From: a virus
Strand: one strand, 5' to 3'
Length of the DNA stretch: 35,315 bases
Virus record (IMG/VR): IMGVR_UViG_3300037246_001457
Location: 1-35,315 of that record
Shown here: positions 1 through 34,139 of the stretch, piece by piece
Layout of the letters: the number at the start of each line of letters is the position of its first letter
How positions within the stretch are numbered: the stretch's first letter is position 1
The notes under the pieces: generated by a model
The model's input: the letters and a program-made list of their open reading frames with translations, nothing else
The model's database searches: none
Told to the model about the DNA's origin: nothing
Position numbers and translations under genes: made by a program

Positions 1-315
1 TTCGGAGTTACTTCAATCGATCTGCTTAAAACTTATCCTTTCTATTCCTGCGACTCGACCAGCTGGCTCGAAGGAGAGAAAAGAGGAAAGCTCTACCGGT
101 TCAGTCCTCGAAAAATGTTAGCCTATTCGTCAAGGGATCGGGATGATATGCTGAGACTTCGAGATCCAGAACTTGTTGATATCGAAAACAAACAATATAC
201 CAATCGAAGCATTTACAATGCATGTGAATTCCTAAAGCTCGAAAAGTTCATTACTGAATTATGGAAAAAAAGAGGAGTAGTGTGGAATGGTAGATCACGA
301 CAAAATCATAAATAA
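1..315 (+). CDS. C-terminal part of a phage TGT/DpdA-like protein (5' cut by window edge)
   Basis: The reading frame is open from base 1 to the stop at 313-315, so the gene begins outside the window; the Met at 115 is internal. The visible part starts with a GVTSIDLLKTYPFYSCDSTSW stretch. A pattern of this kind (G-T-x4-L-x-YP-x-YS-x-DS-x-SW) is what I recall from phage TIM-barrel proteins of the queuine tRNA-ribosyltransferase superfamily, whose best known member DpdA puts deazaguanine bases into DNA. The Asp in DST would sit near the end of the barrel. The remaining residues are charged and unassigned. The last 29 bases overlap the next gene, which suggests translational coupling. The family call rests on one motif and memory, and the active-site part of the protein is not in the window. 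Confidence 0.5.
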   Translation, partial: FGVTSIDLLKTYPFYSCDSTSWLEGEKRGKLYRFSPRKMLAYSSRDRDDMLRLRDPELVDIENKQYTNRSIYNACEFLKLEKFITELWKKRGVVWNGRSRQNHK

Positions 316-949
316 TTATAAACCGGTTGATATTAATCTGCTCGTTAAAGCGAAATGGAATTATAAAATTGACGATCACGAGCGAACTGAGAAACTTAAA
401 AATAACATCAAACTCAACGGACAGATAGAAAATATCATTGTTCGGAATTTCGGCAAAGGAAAATTCGAGATCGTTAACGGGAATCACCGGCTTGATGCCA
501 TGAAGGAACTGAAAATCAAAAAGGTTATGGTATTTGATTGCGGAGATATATCACTGACTAAAGCCAAGAGAATTGCCATTGAAACAAACGAAACGATTTT
601 TGATTCCGATCCTTTTAAATTAGCTGAAACCATCGTTGCAGTGATGAAGGATATACCAATCGATGAGTTAATCTTAACGATGCCATATACGGAGGAAGAC
701 CTTATGGGCTTCGGCAAGCTGTTAGATTTCGATTGGGATCAATTCGCAGGCTCAGACGATGGTAATGGGCTCGGAGAGGAAGATGAGGAGGGCAAGATGA
801 TTGAAATTACCGTATCAGAGCGTGCCTTTAATATGTGGTTGCAGTGGAAAGCAAAATTAAAAGAACATAAGGGGATTGACTCAGAGGATCATTGTTTTGA
901 AGTTGCCGTATCGCACGCTCTCACGATCCCCGTTGATAAATTGATCTAA
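287..949 (+). CDS. ParB/sulfiredoxin-fold nuclease-domain protein next to terminase
   Basis: 220 aa. The N-terminal half matches the ParB N-terminal (sulfiredoxin-like) fold: a strand, then a helix with NNIKLNGQIENIIVR at about 42-56, then the signature GNHR at 65-68, followed by LDAM. The middle and C-terminal parts are acidic (GLGEEDEEG near 160-170). There is no helix-turn-helix or dimer domain as in chromosomal ParB, so this is the short phage form that commonly lies beside terminase genes and may act as a nuclease or packaging accessory. The start at 287 has an AGGAG at 273-277 with 9 bases of spacing. The gene overlaps the upstream reading frame and ends one base before the small terminase, so the genes are co-transcribed. 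The biochemical role is unproven. Confidence 0.72.
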   Translation: MVDHDKIINNYKPVDINLLVKAKWNYKIDDHERTEKLKNNIKLNGQIENIIVRNFGKGKFEIVNGNHRLDAMKELKIKKVMVFDCGDISLTKAKRIAIETNETIFDSDPFKLAETIVAVMKDIPIDELILTMPYTEEDLMGFGKLLDFDWDQFAGSDDGNGLGEEDEEGKMIEITVSERAFNMWLQWKAKLKEHKGIDSEDHCFEVAVSHALTIPVDKLI

Positions 950-22607: not shown

Positions 22608-23660
22608 ATGAAGACAGAAAAAAAAGACGCAAACGCTGAGGCGCGTGATGCCCTCGGTATGAATGGCACGCAAAAAAATGCAACAATAACCGATCTGATC
22701 CTCGCACAAAAGAAAGGTTTTGAAATGGCGCTCCCGAAGGATTGGGATCCTGATCGATTCGTTCGAATTGCCATTACCGCAATCAAAAATTCTGCCGGTC
22801 TGCAAAAGTGCGATCCGATGTCAGTTCTCGGAGCATTGATGTTATCAGCTCAGACAGGACTCGAACCGAATTCACCGCTACATGAAGCATCACTTATTCC
22901 ATATAAGGGACGAGCGCAGTTCCAGATCGAGTATCGAGGCTTACTCAAGCTCGTTTATAATTCCGGAATGGTTGAGTTCGTCGATTACGACAAAGTATGC
23001 GAAAATGAGACTTTCGAATTCACGAAAGGATTTAACCCAATATTCATCCATCATCCCGCACACAAAGGACTCAGATTAAACGCTTACGGTTACTATGCGG
23101 TTGCTGTGCTGAAGGGCGGATCAAAAGTTGTGCATTATATGACGAAGGATGAAGTATTTGCACACGGAAAAAAATTCTCGAAGTCGTTTGAGAATTCGCC
23201 CTGGCAAACTGATTTCGATGCGATGGCATATAAGACAGTCCTCAAGCAGTTAGCGGATAAGAAACTGCCGAAGAAAACAACTGCCGAGTCTTTATTATTC
23301 CATCAGGCAATCGATAAGGATGAGAAAGTTTCGACGCTTTCAGAAGATCAGTTAAATAAAAAAGTAACGCTCGACGATATTGAAACCGAACCCGCAAACT
23401 TTGAAGATATCGAAAAGACGGACGAGGAAACAGTTGAGAATTGGGAATACGCTCCATTCGTTATCGAGCGAATAGCGGAACTCGAAACGGTGCAAGCAGT
23501 TAACAAATTCCGCAAGGATCAGAAAAAACATATCGATGCTTTTGGAGGCAGTGACGGTGATCTGATTAAAATCGCTTTCGATGAAATCGAGGAAAAGATA
23601 ATCACATCTAAGGCGAAGGAAAAAGTAAAAGAGGCAAAAGAAGACAAAAAGCAACAATAA
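22608..23660 (+). CDS. recT: RecT single-strand annealing protein
   Basis: 350 aa with AAGCAAGGAG at 22592-22601. The RecT domain spans about residues 25-240. Landmarks are FVRIAITAIKNSAGLQKCDP, SVLGALMLSAQTGLEPN, then EASLIPYKGRAQFQIEYRGL and LKLVYNSGMVEFVD. A conserved GYYAVAVLKGGSK strand and MAYKTVLKQLADKKLPK follow. The remaining about 110 residues are acidic and then very basic at the end (KAKEKVKEAKEDKKQQ), perhaps a contact for partners. RecT anneals complementary single strands exposed by the exonuclease. The gene is followed by a palindrome cluster and a terminator. Confidence 0.92.
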   Translation: MKTEKKDANAEARDALGMNGTQKNATITDLILAQKKGFEMALPKDWDPDRFVRIAITAIKNSAGLQKCDPMSVLGALMLSAQTGLEPNSPLHEASLIPYKGRAQFQIEYRGLLKLVYNSGMVEFVDYDKVCENETFEFTKGFNPIFIHHPAHKGLRLNAYGYYAVAVLKGGSKVVHYMTKDEVFAHGKKFSKSFENSPWQTDFDAMAYKTVLKQLADKKLPKKTTAESLLFHQAIDKDEKVSTLSEDQLNKKVTLDDIETEPANFEDIEKTDEETVENWEYAPFVIERIAELETVQAVNKFRKDQKKHIDAFGGSDGDLIKIAFDEIEEKIITSKAKEKVKEAKEDKKQQ

Positions 23661-23662
23661 GT

Positions 23663-23703
23663 ATTGATAGTGATTGATCGATCAATACTATCAATGTATC
23701 AAT
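23663..23703. repeat. Phased ATTGAT/ATCAAT palindrome cluster after recT
   Basis: Within 41 bases there are two ATTGAT copies (23663, 23673) and three ATCAAT copies (23681, 23690, 23698), 8-10 bp apart. Positions 23663-23695 form a near-perfect inverted repeat: outer arms ATTGATAGT / ACTATCAAT and inner arms ATTGAT / ATCAAT around CG, with one bulged G. TATCAATG is then tandemly repeated (23689-23704). It could be a protein-binding site or a large RNA hairpin before the terminator. Confidence 0.75.
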
Positions 23704-23736
23704 GTCAAGGGACTATTAGACAGTCCCTTGACTTTA
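23704..23736 (+). terminator. Strong hairpin terminator after recT
   Basis: GTCAAGGGACT (23704-23714) pairs perfectly with AGTCCCTTGAC (23722-23732) over 11 bp with a 7-base loop, followed by TTTAATT. It ends the exonuclease-RecT transcript and lies 35 bases before the next start codon. Confidence 0.85.
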
Positions 23737-23770
23737 ATTAAAATTCTTTTAAGCAAGGAGAATCACTAAC

Positions 23771-26032: not shown

Positions 26033-26665
26033 ATGGGATATGAAAAAGTAAGGACAGCAGTATATGATAAGGACGGTGATTTTATGTTTTGTTTTGAAAG
26101 CATGACCGAAGCATCAAAGAAAATGGATGTTGAAATATCAAATATAAGTATGTGCTTTAAGTTGGGAATTCGATTGGAAGGGAATTACTATATCAAGATT
26201 AATAACTGGTCTGAAATTCCAACAAATATTCCAATTAAGAAGTATCGGCAGGGTGGCAAGGCAGTAATCATATATAAAAGACCTCGGACGATCTGGAAGG
26301 TTTCCTGCTCATTAAAGGAAGCCTCAGATATGGTCGGGGCATCAATAACATCGATCCGAACTCATATTCATAAAAAACAATGGCACGAACGAACAAATTC
26401 ATTTTTCGAATTCGCTGACCCTGACGATCTGATAAACCGGATGCATAAATTCGCACCGAACTATATTCCTTCAACTACTCGAAATAATAAAAGTCGAGTA
26501 CGAGCAACGAATGGTAATTTTAGTAAAGAGTATGATTCGATTTCGGACTGCGCTCGTGATCTGAAAATAAATCGTATTGGAATTATTCATGTGCTGAAAG
26601 GCAGACAACCGAAAGCGGGAGGATATGAGATTGTTAATGTTTTAAAAGGGGAAGGGGCAATATAG
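26033..26665 (+). CDS. Three tandem NUMOD-like modules, no nuclease domain
   Basis: 210 aa with an AGGGGA site. Three repeats of about 50-70 residues are visible. Repeat 1 (about 5-58) has VYDKDGDFMFCFESMTEAS and ends in YYIKI. Repeat 2 (about 76-128) has IYKRPRTIWKVSCSLKEAS and ends in FFEFA. Repeat 3 (about 152-203) has ATNGNFSKEYDSISDCARDL and ends in GYEIV. Each has the strand, S-x-x-[ED]-[AC]-[SA] helix and I-x-x-[HC] helix order of NUMOD1-type DNA-binding repeats. No HNH or GIY-YIG residues are seen. It ends the rightward early cluster and faces the leftward partition operon. Confidence 0.58.
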   Translation: MGYEKVRTAVYDKDGDFMFCFESMTEASKKMDVEISNISMCFKLGIRLEGNYYIKINNWSEIPTNIPIKKYRQGGKAVIIYKRPRTIWKVSCSLKEASDMVGASITSIRTHIHKKQWHERTNSFFEFADPDDLINRMHKFAPNYIPSTTRNNKSRVRATNGNFSKEYDSISDCARDLKINRIGIIHVLKGRQPKAGGYEIVNVLKGEGAI

Positions 26666-27873: not shown

Positions 27874-28635
27874 TTATACCTCCAACTTTTTTAATATTTC
27901 GACTGTTAATTTTTCGTAATCCTCTGCGCCTGTCGACTTCGGTTTGTAATCAAAGATCGATTGTCGTTTGGCAGGTGCTTCGGCAACTGAAACGTTGTCC
28001 CGAATAAATGCCTCCAGCAAGGCATCCTTATAGTCCTCCTGTAATATCGTGCGGATATTTCGAGCAAGGTTCAGCCTGAGATCGACACGATTCAAAAATA
28101 TCCCGAGGATGTTAAGATCGGGGTTCAATTCTTTTTTAACGAGTTTAAGCATCCTTAACAATGAATCCAATCCATCGAGCGGAAGAATCTCAGGGCTTAA
28201 AGGAACTAATATATGTTCAGCATAACACAAGGCATTGATTGTCAATAGTCCTAAATTCGGAGGGCAATCTAAAATGATATACTCGAATTTAGGATCAAGT
28301 CCCATAAACAGCCGGCTTAAAATCGTTTCTCGTTTGAATTGCGTTCCTGCTTCAAACTCAAAATTACTCAGCTCTAAGTTAGAAGTGATTATATATAAAT
28401 TTCCGTGATCTGGAACTGCTTCCCAAAACATTTTACTCGTTTTGAAAATGTCGTAAATTGATTTGTGTTTTATACCTCCTTCCCATTTGAATGATTTAGT
28501 TAAGTGAGCTTGCGGATCGGTATCAATTAACAGAACTTCTTTCCCCTGCCCTGCCAGATATGAGCCGATATTAACAACCGAGGTTGTTTTTCCCACACCT
28601 CCTTTGTGATTCGCAACTGCGATTATTTCAGCCAT
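27874..28635 (-). CDS. parA: ParA/Soj-type partition ATPase
   Basis: 253 aa with AAGCAAGGAG at 28645-28654. The deviant Walker A is NHKGGVGKTTS with KGGVGKTT at 11-18, LLIDTDPQAH at 35-44 is the next switch motif, and Walker B YIILDCPPNLG is at 119-129 with D123. The length and lack of an N-terminal HTH match the short ParA (Soj/type Ib) class. It would form ATP-dependent gradients on nucleoid DNA to position the replicon. The two genes upstream encode ParB-like paralogs and those downstream are small DNA-binding candidates. A phage-borne parA suggests plasmid-like maintenance. Confidence 0.92.
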   Translation of the reverse strand: MAEIIAVANHKGGVGKTTSVVNIGSYLAGQGKEVLLIDTDPQAHLTKSFKWEGGIKHKSIYDIFKTSKMFWEAVPDHGNLYIITSNLELSNFEFEAGTQFKRETILSRLFMGLDPKFEYIILDCPPNLGLLTINALCYAEHILVPLSPEILPLDGLDSLLRMLKLVKKELNPDLNILGIFLNRVDLRLNLARNIRTILQEDYKDALLEAFIRDNVSVAEAPAKRQSIFDYKPKSTGAEDYEKLTVEILKKLEV

Positions 28636-28665
28636 TATTTATAACTCCTTGCTTTTTGAGTGAAA

Positions 28666-29460
28666 TCAAACACCATATGGATGTTCAAGTTGATTCGGTA
28701 TATCGACTGCCCGAAGATCGGTGTCAGAATAGTATAAGTTCCATGCATGAAAGACCAATTTAATTAATGGATAGTATTCGAGTTTATATACCTGATTGTG
28801 AGAGGTATATGTTAATTTCTTTTTAACTGCTTTCAATGTATTCAGGCATTTCGTTTCTTCACCGAGTAATATTCCCCTGAAAAATAGAGTAGCCTGCTCC
28901 TCGTGTTTCTGACCGAGTATGTAAAACATAAATGCAAGCTGAGTGAATCCTATTGCTTTCGAGTGCTTTCGTAATAATTCAGCAAACTTGACAGCTTTAT
29001 TTAATTTGCGTTTCGGAATCTTCTGATAATATGCGTAATAGATTTCGTTTTTTATTCTGTTCTGAGAAACGAGGGATTGAAATTTGTACTTATATAGTTG
29101 TTTGATAAGTGGCGCGTAGATATGTGCGTCCTTCACTCCTTCAATATAAAGGGCATCGAATAACGATCTGGCTTTCCCTGAGTTCGGAGTCGAAAAGGCA
29201 AGATCATCTACTCCGTATGAGACGAGCGTCGGGAATTCGTTCTCTGATTTGATGCAAGCCTGAATCCTTTTATACCCATCGACTAGAAATCCTTTAGATG
29301 TGAATTTTATTGTCTCTCCGTTCAGCAACCAGTTTGACGCTCTCATATCTTTGGCGAGAACATCGATAACAACTTCCGAATTACGATGAACATAATATTT
29401 TTCTTCCTTTATTATTTCCCTGGCTAACCTCGGCGTTATGATTACGATTTCACATTTCAT
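28666..29460 (-). CDS. ParB-like protein 2 (DGYKR variant)
   Basis: 264 aa. IKFTSKGFLVDGYKRIQACI contains DGYKR at 61-65 in the place of the DGQHR of its paralog. Hydrophobic and helical segments follow (LIKQLYKYKFQSLVSQNRI), and the end LIKLVFHAWNLYYSDT ... IPNQLEHPYG matches the paralog's end (VKAFFHTWN ... PNGLESPLV). The fold is thus a ParB/sulfiredoxin-like N-domain with a shared alpha-helical C-domain. The H-to-K change in the nucleotide-binding motif may change or abolish CTP or nuclease chemistry. It overlaps the upstream gene by 4 bases and uses a GAGG site inside it. Confidence 0.62.
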   Translation of the reverse strand: MKCEIVIITPRLAREIIKEEKYYVHRNSEVVIDVLAKDMRASNWLLNGETIKFTSKGFLVDGYKRIQACIKSENEFPTLVSYGVDDLAFSTPNSGKARSLFDALYIEGVKDAHIYAPLIKQLYKYKFQSLVSQNRIKNEIYYAYYQKIPKRKLNKAVKFAELLRKHSKAIGFTQLAFMFYILGQKHEEQATLFFRGILLGEETKCLNTLKAVKKKLTYTSHNQVYKLEYYPLIKLVFHAWNLYYSDTDLRAVDIPNQLEHPYGV

Positions 29461-30332
29461 TTTTGACCTCGTCGTTTTTTAGGAACCAATGGCGATTCAA
29501 GACCGTTCGGCACAGCAAAAGTATGCGGTCTGACTTTCTCGATATTCATATTCCAAGTATGGAAAAATGCCTTAACAACTAATCCCCTGCCGATTTTATA
29601 GTTCTCGTTTTTCAGTTTGATAAAAAACTGACGAGCTTTCAAAATCGGGTCTCCTTTTTCGAGACCATATCCTTCGTAGAATTTCGTAAAGAAATCCTGC
29701 GCACTCTGAAGATCGAGTTTTTTCAATTCGGAATAAACGAATGTTCCGATCCCTGCTCCGACGATTCCATTTTCACGCTGAAGATTCGTAACGAATTTCA
29801 GATCGACGAGCAGATCGTCAAGGTCGAGAGTCTTCATATACTTAATTAAATTGATCGGGTTAACATAATATATCTTGCCGGTCTTCCGGAAATCTTTCGA
29901 GAACTGGTAAAGATATTTGTGTTTAATGATCGTAGCCATATTTGTATATTCTTTGACATTGAGTATTCTGAGAACCTCGTCAAAATTCCTTGACTTATAA
30001 TCATCGATTGTAACGAATACCTCAGGTTCTAAACCTCGGACGGTTAATAGTTTTCTGCTTAGACCTGATAAACTGATCCCGAGTAACCGGTGCTGTCCAT
30101 CGATCAGGGTATCGTTCTTATCGAACTTAATCGGATTGCCATCTTCAATAAAATTGTCGGACTTCAATAACTCAGCGAAATACTCTCCCCTCCTCTGAGA
30201 AAGTTTCCTATTGTTAAGATTATGTTCGATCAGGACTTCGTCAGCTTTCGGGCGGGTGAATGTTTCGAAGTTGATCCTGATACCTTTCCAGAGTATCGAC
30301 TTCTTGTACTTGTTTAAATCTTGTAACTGCAT
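29457..30332 (-). CDS. ParB-like protein 1 (DGQHR motif), first gene of the partition operon
   Basis: 291 aa with TAGCAAGGAG at 30341-30350. Residues about 25-95 carry GNPIKFDKNDTLIDGQHRLL with DGQHR at 78-82, the hallmark of the ParB/sulfiredoxin-like N-terminal domain in the form common in phages and mobile elements. Residues 100-270 are helical, ending FFHTWNMNIEKV, PNGLESPLVPKK and a basic tail. It has no typical ParB HTH that I can see. It is paralogous to the next gene. It leads the operon with parA, so a partition-adaptor role is plausible, although a nuclease or defence-type role is possible. Confidence 0.68.
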   Translation of the reverse strand: MQLQDLNKYKKSILWKGIRINFETFTRPKADEVLIEHNLNNRKLSQRRGEYFAELLKSDNFIEDGNPIKFDKNDTLIDGQHRLLGISLSGLSRKLLTVRGLEPEVFVTIDDYKSRNFDEVLRILNVKEYTNMATIIKHKYLYQFSKDFRKTGKIYYVNPINLIKYMKTLDLDDLLVDLKFVTNLQRENGIVGAGIGTFVYSELKKLDLQSAQDFFTKFYEGYGLEKGDPILKARQFFIKLKNENYKIGRGLVVKAFFHTWNMNIEKVRPHTFAVPNGLESPLVPKKRRGQK

Positions 30333-30406
30333 AAGACGGACTCCTTGCTAGTGAATAAATAAGTAATTAAGATAAATATGTTCTTTTTGATAATGCTTTT
30401 GTGCCA

Positions 30407-30441
30407 CGATAATTCTAATTAATATACTTTATGAATTATCG
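30407..30441. repeat. Perfect 9-bp inverted repeat upstream of the partition operon
   Basis: CGATAATTC at 30407-30415 and GAATTATCG at 30433-30441 are exact reverse complements separated by 17 bp, so the half-site centres are 26 bp apart. The pair lies 75 bp before the ParB-like start and is a candidate operator or centromere half-site pair. AATTATCG recurs once more at about 30583. Confidence 0.6.
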
Positions 30442-30451
30442 AATAAAATAA

Positions 30452-30475
30452 TAATATAAATAATATAAATAATAT
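30452..30475. repeat. TAATATAAA tandem repeat (2.7 copies)
   Basis: TAATATAAA at 30452-30460 and 30461-30469, then TAATAT at 30470-30475. The stretch is pure A/T and adjoins the inverted repeat, so it could be an easily melted segment or a binding array. Confidence 0.6.
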
Positions 30476-30598
30476 TTCGATTCCAGTCAATATTTTAATT
30501 GCAATTATTGTGCTGATAACTTATTTTGCTCTGACTTAAATCGGATATGAAAATGCAGGTAAGGAATAATAAACTAAATAGTAATTATCGGAATGAAA

Positions 30599-30622
30599 AA
30601 AGCCCGACGTAAATCGGGCTTT
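30599..30622 (-). terminator. Bidirectional hairpin terminator, best in leftward direction
   Basis: AAAGCCCGA (30599-30607) pairs with TCGGGCTTT (30614-30622) around a 6-base loop. Read leftward the stem is followed by six T residues; read rightward only by TTTCTT. It separates transcription of the initiator side from that of the partition side. Confidence 0.8.
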
Positions 30623-30716
30623 CTTGACTTGACTCAAAAGTTATTGAGACTGTCACTAACATGGCTCTCAATATAGCTTCCCTTTTATCTCTTGTCAAGG
30701 AAATTCTACAAAAAAA

Positions 30717-30740
30717 TATTATTCAATAATACGAATAATA
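30717..30740. promoter_or_regulatory. 8-bp inverted repeat just before the initiator gene
   Basis: TATTATTC (30717-30724) and GAATAATA (30733-30740) are exact reverse complements with an 8-bp spacer. The left arm coincides with a possible -10 box (TATTAT). It lies 18 bp before the start codon, so it is a candidate autoregulatory operator. Confidence 0.5.
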
Positions 30741-30758
30741 CTAAGACAGGGGCTCAAA

Positions 30759-31667
30759 ATGAACGATCGTAAGTCTGGTTTGTATTCAGCAAATGAGAAA
30801 GACATCGAACAATATGGAATCGAATGTGCGATGTTAATCAACTACATTCAGTTTTATGTTCAGGTACTCGCTAATAAAGAAATCAATTTACACGAGGGCA
30901 GAATATATATGTATCATTCTGCGGAGCAGTTCCAGAAACGTTTTCATTTTTGGAGCTTAGACAAGATCGGCAGGCACCTGAGAGAGTTGGAGAAAAAGTA
31001 TAAAGTTCTTACCTCGTATCAACCTGAAAATCACTTCGGTAAAATGACCAAGCACTATGCGTTTATAGATCAGGATATTTATATAGATGTTGGGAATACG
31101 GAGAGTTTTGCGAATCTGCAAAATTACAAGTTGCAATCTGCAAATGTGCAGAATCCAGAATCTGTAAATTTACAGATTGTATATAAAGAAGATTTAAAAG
31201 AAGATTTAAAAAATATATATACTTCTCCCCGGATGATTGAAAAGCAACTAACATTTTTCGATCTACATGTTACACAACTAAAAAAACTCAATCCTGAATT
31301 CACCAGACAGAATAAAACGATCGTTTTCAAAAAAGAATATTATTTGAAGTTTGTAAAATTGCAATATACGAACGAGACTTTTATCGATCTCCTGAAATTC
31401 ATTTACTCCGACAAATATTGGAGCGGTGCGATAACTTCTCCCCTGAAATTGAAACAGTTTGCCGATGATATCATTCATAAGTTCAACGTGAAAAAATTCC
31501 AAGATTCGAGCAACGGAAAAACCGCGCCCCCGGAGTGTCATTTCTGCGGAAAAGCAGGAGCGTATCAGAAAATAAGCAATCAAGATTACTGCAACATGAA
31601 ATGTTACGATCTTGAATCAGAGGCGAAAATTAAAATAGAAAGGGAAAAACATGATTCCCCGAAATGA
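30759..31667 (+). CDS. Replication initiator-like protein with embedded repeats and C-terminal zinc motif
   Basis: 302 aa; AGGGG lies a few bases before the ATG. The N-terminal about 110 residues look like a winged-helix domain of phage or plasmid replication proteins: IECAMLINYIQFYVQVL, IYMYHSAEQFQKRFHFW, LDKIGRHLRELEKKYKV and KHYAFIDQDIY. A linker at about 115-150 (NLQNYKLQSANVQN) is encoded by iteron-like DNA. A DnaD-like helical part follows at about 170-245. C260-x2-C263 and C278-x3-C282 form a likely zinc site near the C-terminus. It probably recognises the origin and recruits the host helicase, as lambda O does. The exact family is uncertain. Confidence 0.65.
   Translation: MNDRKSGLYSANEKDIEQYGIECAMLINYIQFYVQVLANKEINLHEGRIYMYHSAEQFQKRFHFWSLDKIGRHLRELEKKYKVLTSYQPENHFGKMTKHYAFIDQDIYIDVGNTESFANLQNYKLQSANVQNPESVNLQIVYKEDLKEDLKNIYTSPRMIEKQLTFFDLHVTQLKKLNPEFTRQNKTIVFKKEYYLKFVKLQYTNETFIDLLKFIYSDKYWSGAITSPLKLKQFADDIIHKFNVKKFQDSSNGKTAPPECHFCGKAGAYQKISNQDYCNMKCYDLESEAKIKIEREKHDSPK
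31113..31220. other. Candidate replication origin inside the initiator gene
   Basis: AATCTGCAAA occurs at 31113-31122 and 31135-31144, and AATCTGTAAA at 31159-31168. The last is the left half of a perfect 20-bp palindrome, AATCTGTAAATTTACAGATT (31159-31178). The first repeat is in a different codon phase from the other two, so the DNA rather than the protein is repeated. Next comes a 12-bp tandem duplication, AAAGAAGATTTA at 31185-31196 and 31197-31208, and then AATATATATA up to 31221. Binding sites followed by an AT-rich unwinding region inside an initiator gene resemble the lambda origin within gene O. Confidence 0.65.
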
Positions 31668-34105: not shown

Positions 34106-34139
34106 TTAATTAGTTGATAATTTTAATTAGTTGATAATT
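34106..34139. repeat. Exact 17-bp tandem repeat between the Cro-like gene and its neighbour
   Basis: TTAATTAGTTGATAATT occurs at 34106-34122 and again at 34123-34139 without a mismatch. It lies upstream of the gene starting at 34091 and just after the Cro-like gene. Together with the nearby regulator it is a good operator candidate. Confidence 0.7.

Follow-up and report, generated by a model that had tools for sequence, protein, structure and literature searches.

The window, that is the whole stretch of 35,315 bp that was analysed, is a complete IMG/VR virus record encoding terminase, scaffold, major head, tape-measure, RecE/RecT, ParA and ParB-like proteins. The gene under study (Table 1) encodes P0001, for which profile matches were obtained to phrog_11233 ("replication initiation protein", E 1.6e-9) and phrog_6493 ("DnaD-like helicase loader", E 2.3e-6), spanning the N-terminal domain and the linker. 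Both profiles were matched by 26/26 proteins of alignment A2, P0001 included. The AlphaFold2 model, built with 26 sequences, placed a winged helix at the N-terminus in the order helix-helix-helix-helix-strand-strand. The best Foldseek matches for this domain were the plasmid RepA initiator N-domains 4pql, 5kbj and 4pt7 (E 0.006-0.02); VIA against these three gave Z 9.0-9.9 and rmsd 4.6-4.9 over ~99 residues, a small margin over other winged helices (Z 8-9.3). P0001 had no match to Pfam RepA_N (PF06970) at E 0.1, PF06970 was not among the families matched by the 26 A2 proteins at 0.01, and a sequence search of the PDB with the initiator returned no match. The motif of the C-terminal domain is identical to lambda O at 9 of 22 positions (pairwise BLASTP E 4e-4), a similarity of this short motif only, and the C-terminal domain alone found no match when searched against phages. 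The profile matches, the predicted winged helix nearest to plasmid RepA domains and the lambda-O-like motif agree with the earlier note, in which the gene was read as encoding a replication initiator. The Cys4 tail is absent from the aligned relatives L003-L010.

Table 1. Features of the initiator gene and of the repeat array within it, in window coordinates.
Feature	Position	Strand	Remarks
Replication initiator gene, 302 aa, protein P0001	30759..31667	+	phrog_11233 and phrog_6493 matches
Winged-helix DNA-binding domain, aa 13-102	30795..31064	+	AlphaFold2, pLDDT mostly 80-96
Disordered linker, aa 110-164	31086..31250	+	pLDDT <50
Iteron 1, AATCTGCAAAATTACAAGTT	31113..31132	+	left arm exact, right arm weak; 6/10 palindromic
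Iteron 2, AATCTGCAAATGTGCAGAAT	31135..31154	+	8/10 palindromic
Iteron 3, AATCTGTAAATTTACAGATT	31159..31178	+	10/10, perfect 20-bp palindrome
Candidate DNA unwinding element	31180..31223	+	dG -41.3, directly 3' of the dyads
12-bp tandem repeat, AAAGAAGATTTA x2	31185..31208	+	exact; TRF: 31185-31211, 2.2 copies
A/T-only tract, 18 nt	31204..31221	+	62/1000 synonymous resamplings
Helical C-terminal domain, aa 157-243	31227..31487	+	moderate-confidence AlphaFold2 helices; lambda-O-like motif DKYWSGAITSPLKLK
Cys4 possible zinc-binding tail (C260, C263, C278, C282)	31536..31604	+	read from translation

The repeat array sits wholly within the DNA coding for the disordered linker, with its dyads ~350-420 bp into the gene. 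The trio of 10-mers AATCTG[C/T]AAA that the earlier note had described as repeat units about 22-24 bp apart was found as AATCTGCAAA at 31113 and 31135 and as AATCTGTAAA at 31159, at start-to-start distances of 22 and 24 bp. While the 10-mers are present as described, each is the left arm of a 20-bp dyad, and the three dyads, whose arms meet at an A-rich centre, are the true units. The third 10-mer does lie in a perfect 20-bp palindrome, which is the sole perfect even palindrome of at least 16 bp in the whole record. The exact 12-bp tandem and the A/T-only tract reported to follow it were also recovered. The 44-bp segment that includes the tandem (31180-31223) is the lowest-stability segment of that length within any gene and ranks second across the record. 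Relative to the ATG, the 10-mers have offsets of 0, 1 and 1 modulo 3, and thus the first differs in codon phase from the other two, as had been claimed.

Chance expectation was assessed by redrawing synonymous codons for the initiator gene using the record's own codon usage. A palindrome of at least 20 bp appeared in 3 of 1000 such resamplings, the exact 12-bp tandem in 21/1000, the A/T-only tract in 62/1000 and the 10-mer trio, weak by itself, in 68/1000; a palindrome of at least 16 bp together with the trio was obtained in 2/1000. In a permutation test, synonymous codons were shuffled inside the gene and a combined score of direct and inverted repeats was taken; the score of the array was matched by 3/1000 shuffles (0/300 at a coarser step). 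These frequencies show the elements to be modest one by one, but not in combination. The same shuffle test gave 0/1000 for lambda gene O and 42/1000 for TP901-1 rep as positive controls, and since the latter, a proven case, was only marginal, the test is not a sharp one. The array also had the highest 120-nt repeat density in the record, by a narrow margin (20 versus 18, 18 and 17).

The initiator was then compared with its relatives, in a set of 30 sequences below 75% identity, including the window, from phage records, plasmids and IMG/VR. The relatives are distant, at 15-27% identity to the window initiator; no close relatives of the initiator (IMG/VR, genome_contigs) or of the major head protein (IMG/VR) were confirmed. 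Eighteen of the 29 relatives beat their synonymous shuffles (at most 5/300), and in these the start of the densest repeats lies at -21 to +105 nt relative to where the winged helix ends. In L004, L009, L100, L105, L107 and L108 dyads were visible but above the 5/300 level. Relatives that have the same initiator and no repeats, named in the earlier note as evidence against an origin, were a minority (L003, L008 and L077, without repeat excess by score) and not the family; the array is therefore not obligatory. A-centred dyads follow the winged helix in most relatives (e.g. CGGATCAAAATGATCCG, GGACAAAATGTCC and TTTTGCAAAATTGCAA), with arm sequences that vary between initiator subfamilies and an A-rich centre that is kept. 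In one of the relatives without repeat excess, from a Vibrio phage (L003), the N-domain of this family is coupled with a C-domain sharing 49% identity (83 aa, E 3e-27) with the one in lambda O. Alignment A1 was dropped from the pattern scan because its sequences were too diverged.

Repeat lags were analysed across the family with the window left out. The lags in the linker-coding DNA peaked at 22, 23, 24, 45 and 12, which was reached by 0/200 synonymous shuffle sets, and at lag 22 the mean best 24-nt match was 17.5, compared with 13.2 in shuffles. The lag-22 and lag-12 peaks were confined to the linker, with none in the N- or C-terminal coding parts; lag 11 in the linker was also slightly raised. 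Because 22 is not divisible by three and this lag exceeded all synonymous shuffles, the DNA itself is under selection. The linker spacing of 22-24 and 12 bp is a family trait found here, not a curated criterion, and the window array fits it with its own spacings of 22, 24 and 12 in linker-coding DNA. The unwinding-element repeats in the linkers of many relatives (L010, L061, L017 and similar loci) read ACTACTACAGAG, the complement of which resembles DnaA-trio GAT repeats.

It is highly improbable that the repeats at the window are due to chance or are a by-product of a low-complexity linker. The linker is predicted to be disordered, and the trio and the A/T tract each arose in more than 60 of 1000 resamplings, but the combined array was matched in only 3/1000, its copies differ in codon phase, and the family-wide lag of 22 goes beyond what codons explain.

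Phage lambda and some plasmids are well-known examples of an origin located inside the initiator gene. At ori-lambda, dimers of O bind near-perfect inverted repeats, and the neighbouring A+T-rich region of 40 bp opens (PMC5043065). Four iterons are annotated in lambda gene O (ATCCCTCAAAACGAGGGA etc.), with A-centred arms at spacings of 20, 24 and 23, followed by an A/T-rich tract. The window shares with ori-lambda a central position in the initiator gene, imperfect A-rich-centred dyads ~20-24 bp apart and an A/T-rich segment on the 3' side, and its protein shares with lambda O the C-terminal motif (D/N)(F/Y)WSG-(V/I)-SP-KL. It differs in having three units versus four and in the arm sequence; BLASTP detected no similarity between the N-domains of P0001 and lambda O, and no lambda-P-like loader gene was recognised adjoining the window initiator.

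The iterons of RepA_N plasmids are described as inverted repeats with a poly-A tract at their point of convergence (PMC7145576). The Rep boxes of pSK41, located centrally in rep, are bound by the N-domain, and the linker that they encode tolerates in-frame deletion (PMC5703833). Like these plasmids (pSK41, pTZ2162), the window has, where its initiator gene codes for the linker, semi-palindromic iterons whose arms meet at a poly-A tract; it also has a linker encoded by the putative ori and a helical C-domain, and the nearest solved winged helices to its N-domain are theirs, by a small margin. The missing PF06970 match, the phage setting and the extra Cys4 tail set the window apart from them, as does a C-domain that, by its short motif, resembles lambda O and not that of pSK41. 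TP901-1 and Tuc2009 provide further intragenic phage origins (PMC8965321); by description, lactococcal ORF13 and Rep2009 are, like P0001, replisome organizers of a DnaD-like class, and they bind direct repeats in their own genes that serve as ori. SPP1 oriL is located in gene 38 (PMC6316719), and it too is similar by description: the initiator gene holds direct repeats together with an A/T-rich unwinding element and is bound there by gp38, whereas a second origin (oriR) lies ~13 kb away in SPP1 and none was recognised in the window. The PHROG 11233/6493 initiators of Listeria, Lactobacillus, Bacteroides, Flavobacterium and Vibrio phages share the N-domain at 15-27% identity, most have such an intragenic array, and their arms differ between subfamilies.

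Since relatives share the array type, its position in the gene and its spacings, and since four characterised systems have their origin at that place, the most likely replication origin of the phage is the segment 31113-31223, which lies inside the gene of its own initiator; this upholds the central proposal of the earlier note. The three 20-bp dyads would be the binding sites for dimers of the N-terminal winged-helix domain; once occupied, the array would strain and open the A/T-rich DNA that lies 3' of it and contains the 12-bp repeats, and the helical C-domain would then recruit a helicase or loader. Binding, opening and helicase recruitment, as well as theta replication, are proposed from homology and precedent. 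The phage carrying the array is probably a phage-plasmid. The reading is weakened by there being three iterons only, the first with a weak right arm. GC skew, which had been suggested as a check, was uninformative for the origin because it tracks the direction of the genes, with a coding-strand value of +0.10 on + genes and +0.09 on - genes.

The working origin might instead lie upstream of the initiator, in the A/T-rich intergenic region 30333-30758, with the intragenic dyads having a secondary role in copy control or incompatibility. Some theta plasmids do have their ori upstream of rep (PMC5703833), and the lowest-stability 44 bp of the whole record (30434-30477) lies in this region and contains a 9-bp tandem, AATAATATA x3.9. 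However, zero copies of AATCTG[CT]AAA were found in 30333-30758, and in relatives the array stays within the gene. Promoters or a centromere would explain the region, because it adjoins the ParA/ParB-like operon and also contains a terminator-like inverted repeat as well as sites resembling promoters, and we consider an upstream origin unlikely. Even less probable is a purely regulatory function with no origin role, in which a transcription factor, or the initiator controlling its own expression, would use the dyads as operators. A lone perfect palindrome could be an operator, and promoter-like matches are frequent nearby, but these sites are well within the coding sequence and adjoin low-stability DNA, relatives repeat the pairing of 22-bp and 12-bp spacings, and the characterised homologous layouts are origins.

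With the intragenic array taken as the origin, the result for the window locus alone is confirmatory, as this kind of layout was already known, and it places the probable origin of an uncharacterised phage by sequence alone. Phage initiators of a broad class have the layout of lambda, TP901-1 and pSK41 with fixed spacings, and origins should therefore be predictable in many unannotated phages and the pairing of initiator and iteron arm should be testable. A more tentative proposal, which we think somewhat doubtful, is that the winged-helix initiators of this class, in phages from very different hosts, share one portable module in which the gene is also the origin, with a fixed DNA grammar of N3-CA-A-tract-TG-N3 dyads at 22-23 bp and, after them, an unwinding element containing 12-bp repeats. 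Variation would be limited to the arm triplet, which would change together with the recognition helix, and the window, with its even-centred dyads, would belong to the module as a diverged member. If this were true, origin specificity would drift while the scaffold stayed constant, and could be deduced from sequence.

The correlation of arms with the recognition helix is suggestive only. A partial Mantel test gave p = 0.003, with half-sites chosen by eye and phylogeny uncontrolled, and Glu at residue 67 was found with GG arms in 8/11 versus 1/15 cases (Fisher p = 8e-4, post hoc). Coevolution of the arms with the recognition helix is retained as no more than a hint, as another block of the domain (residues 17-24) scored higher and distant pairs were uncorrelated (rho 0.09, p = 0.22).

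Several other loci were recorded in the window. On the minus strand, 27874-30332 carries a ParA gene and then two related phrog_5931 genes, one of which shows, on reading the sequence, a ParB-N-like motif of the IDGQHR type; a separate ParB_N protein is encoded at 287-949 (+), near the terminase genes. These genes are probable phage-plasmid partition functions, and the ParA/ParB-like operon adjoining the initiator suggests a plasmid-like prophage stage. Between this operon and the initiator, 30434-30477 is a candidate centromere, promoter region or alternative origin. An exact 17-bp tandem, TTAATTAGTTGATAATT x2, lies within an A/T-rich stretch at 34106-34139. The RecT gene is followed at 23651-23740 by operator-like inverted repeats (AGTATTGATAGTGATTGATCGATCAATACTATCAATG) and then a stem-loop, CAAGGGACTATTAGACAGTCCCTTG, and a HNH homing-endonuclease-like gene with a NUMOD domain is found at 26033-26665 (+).
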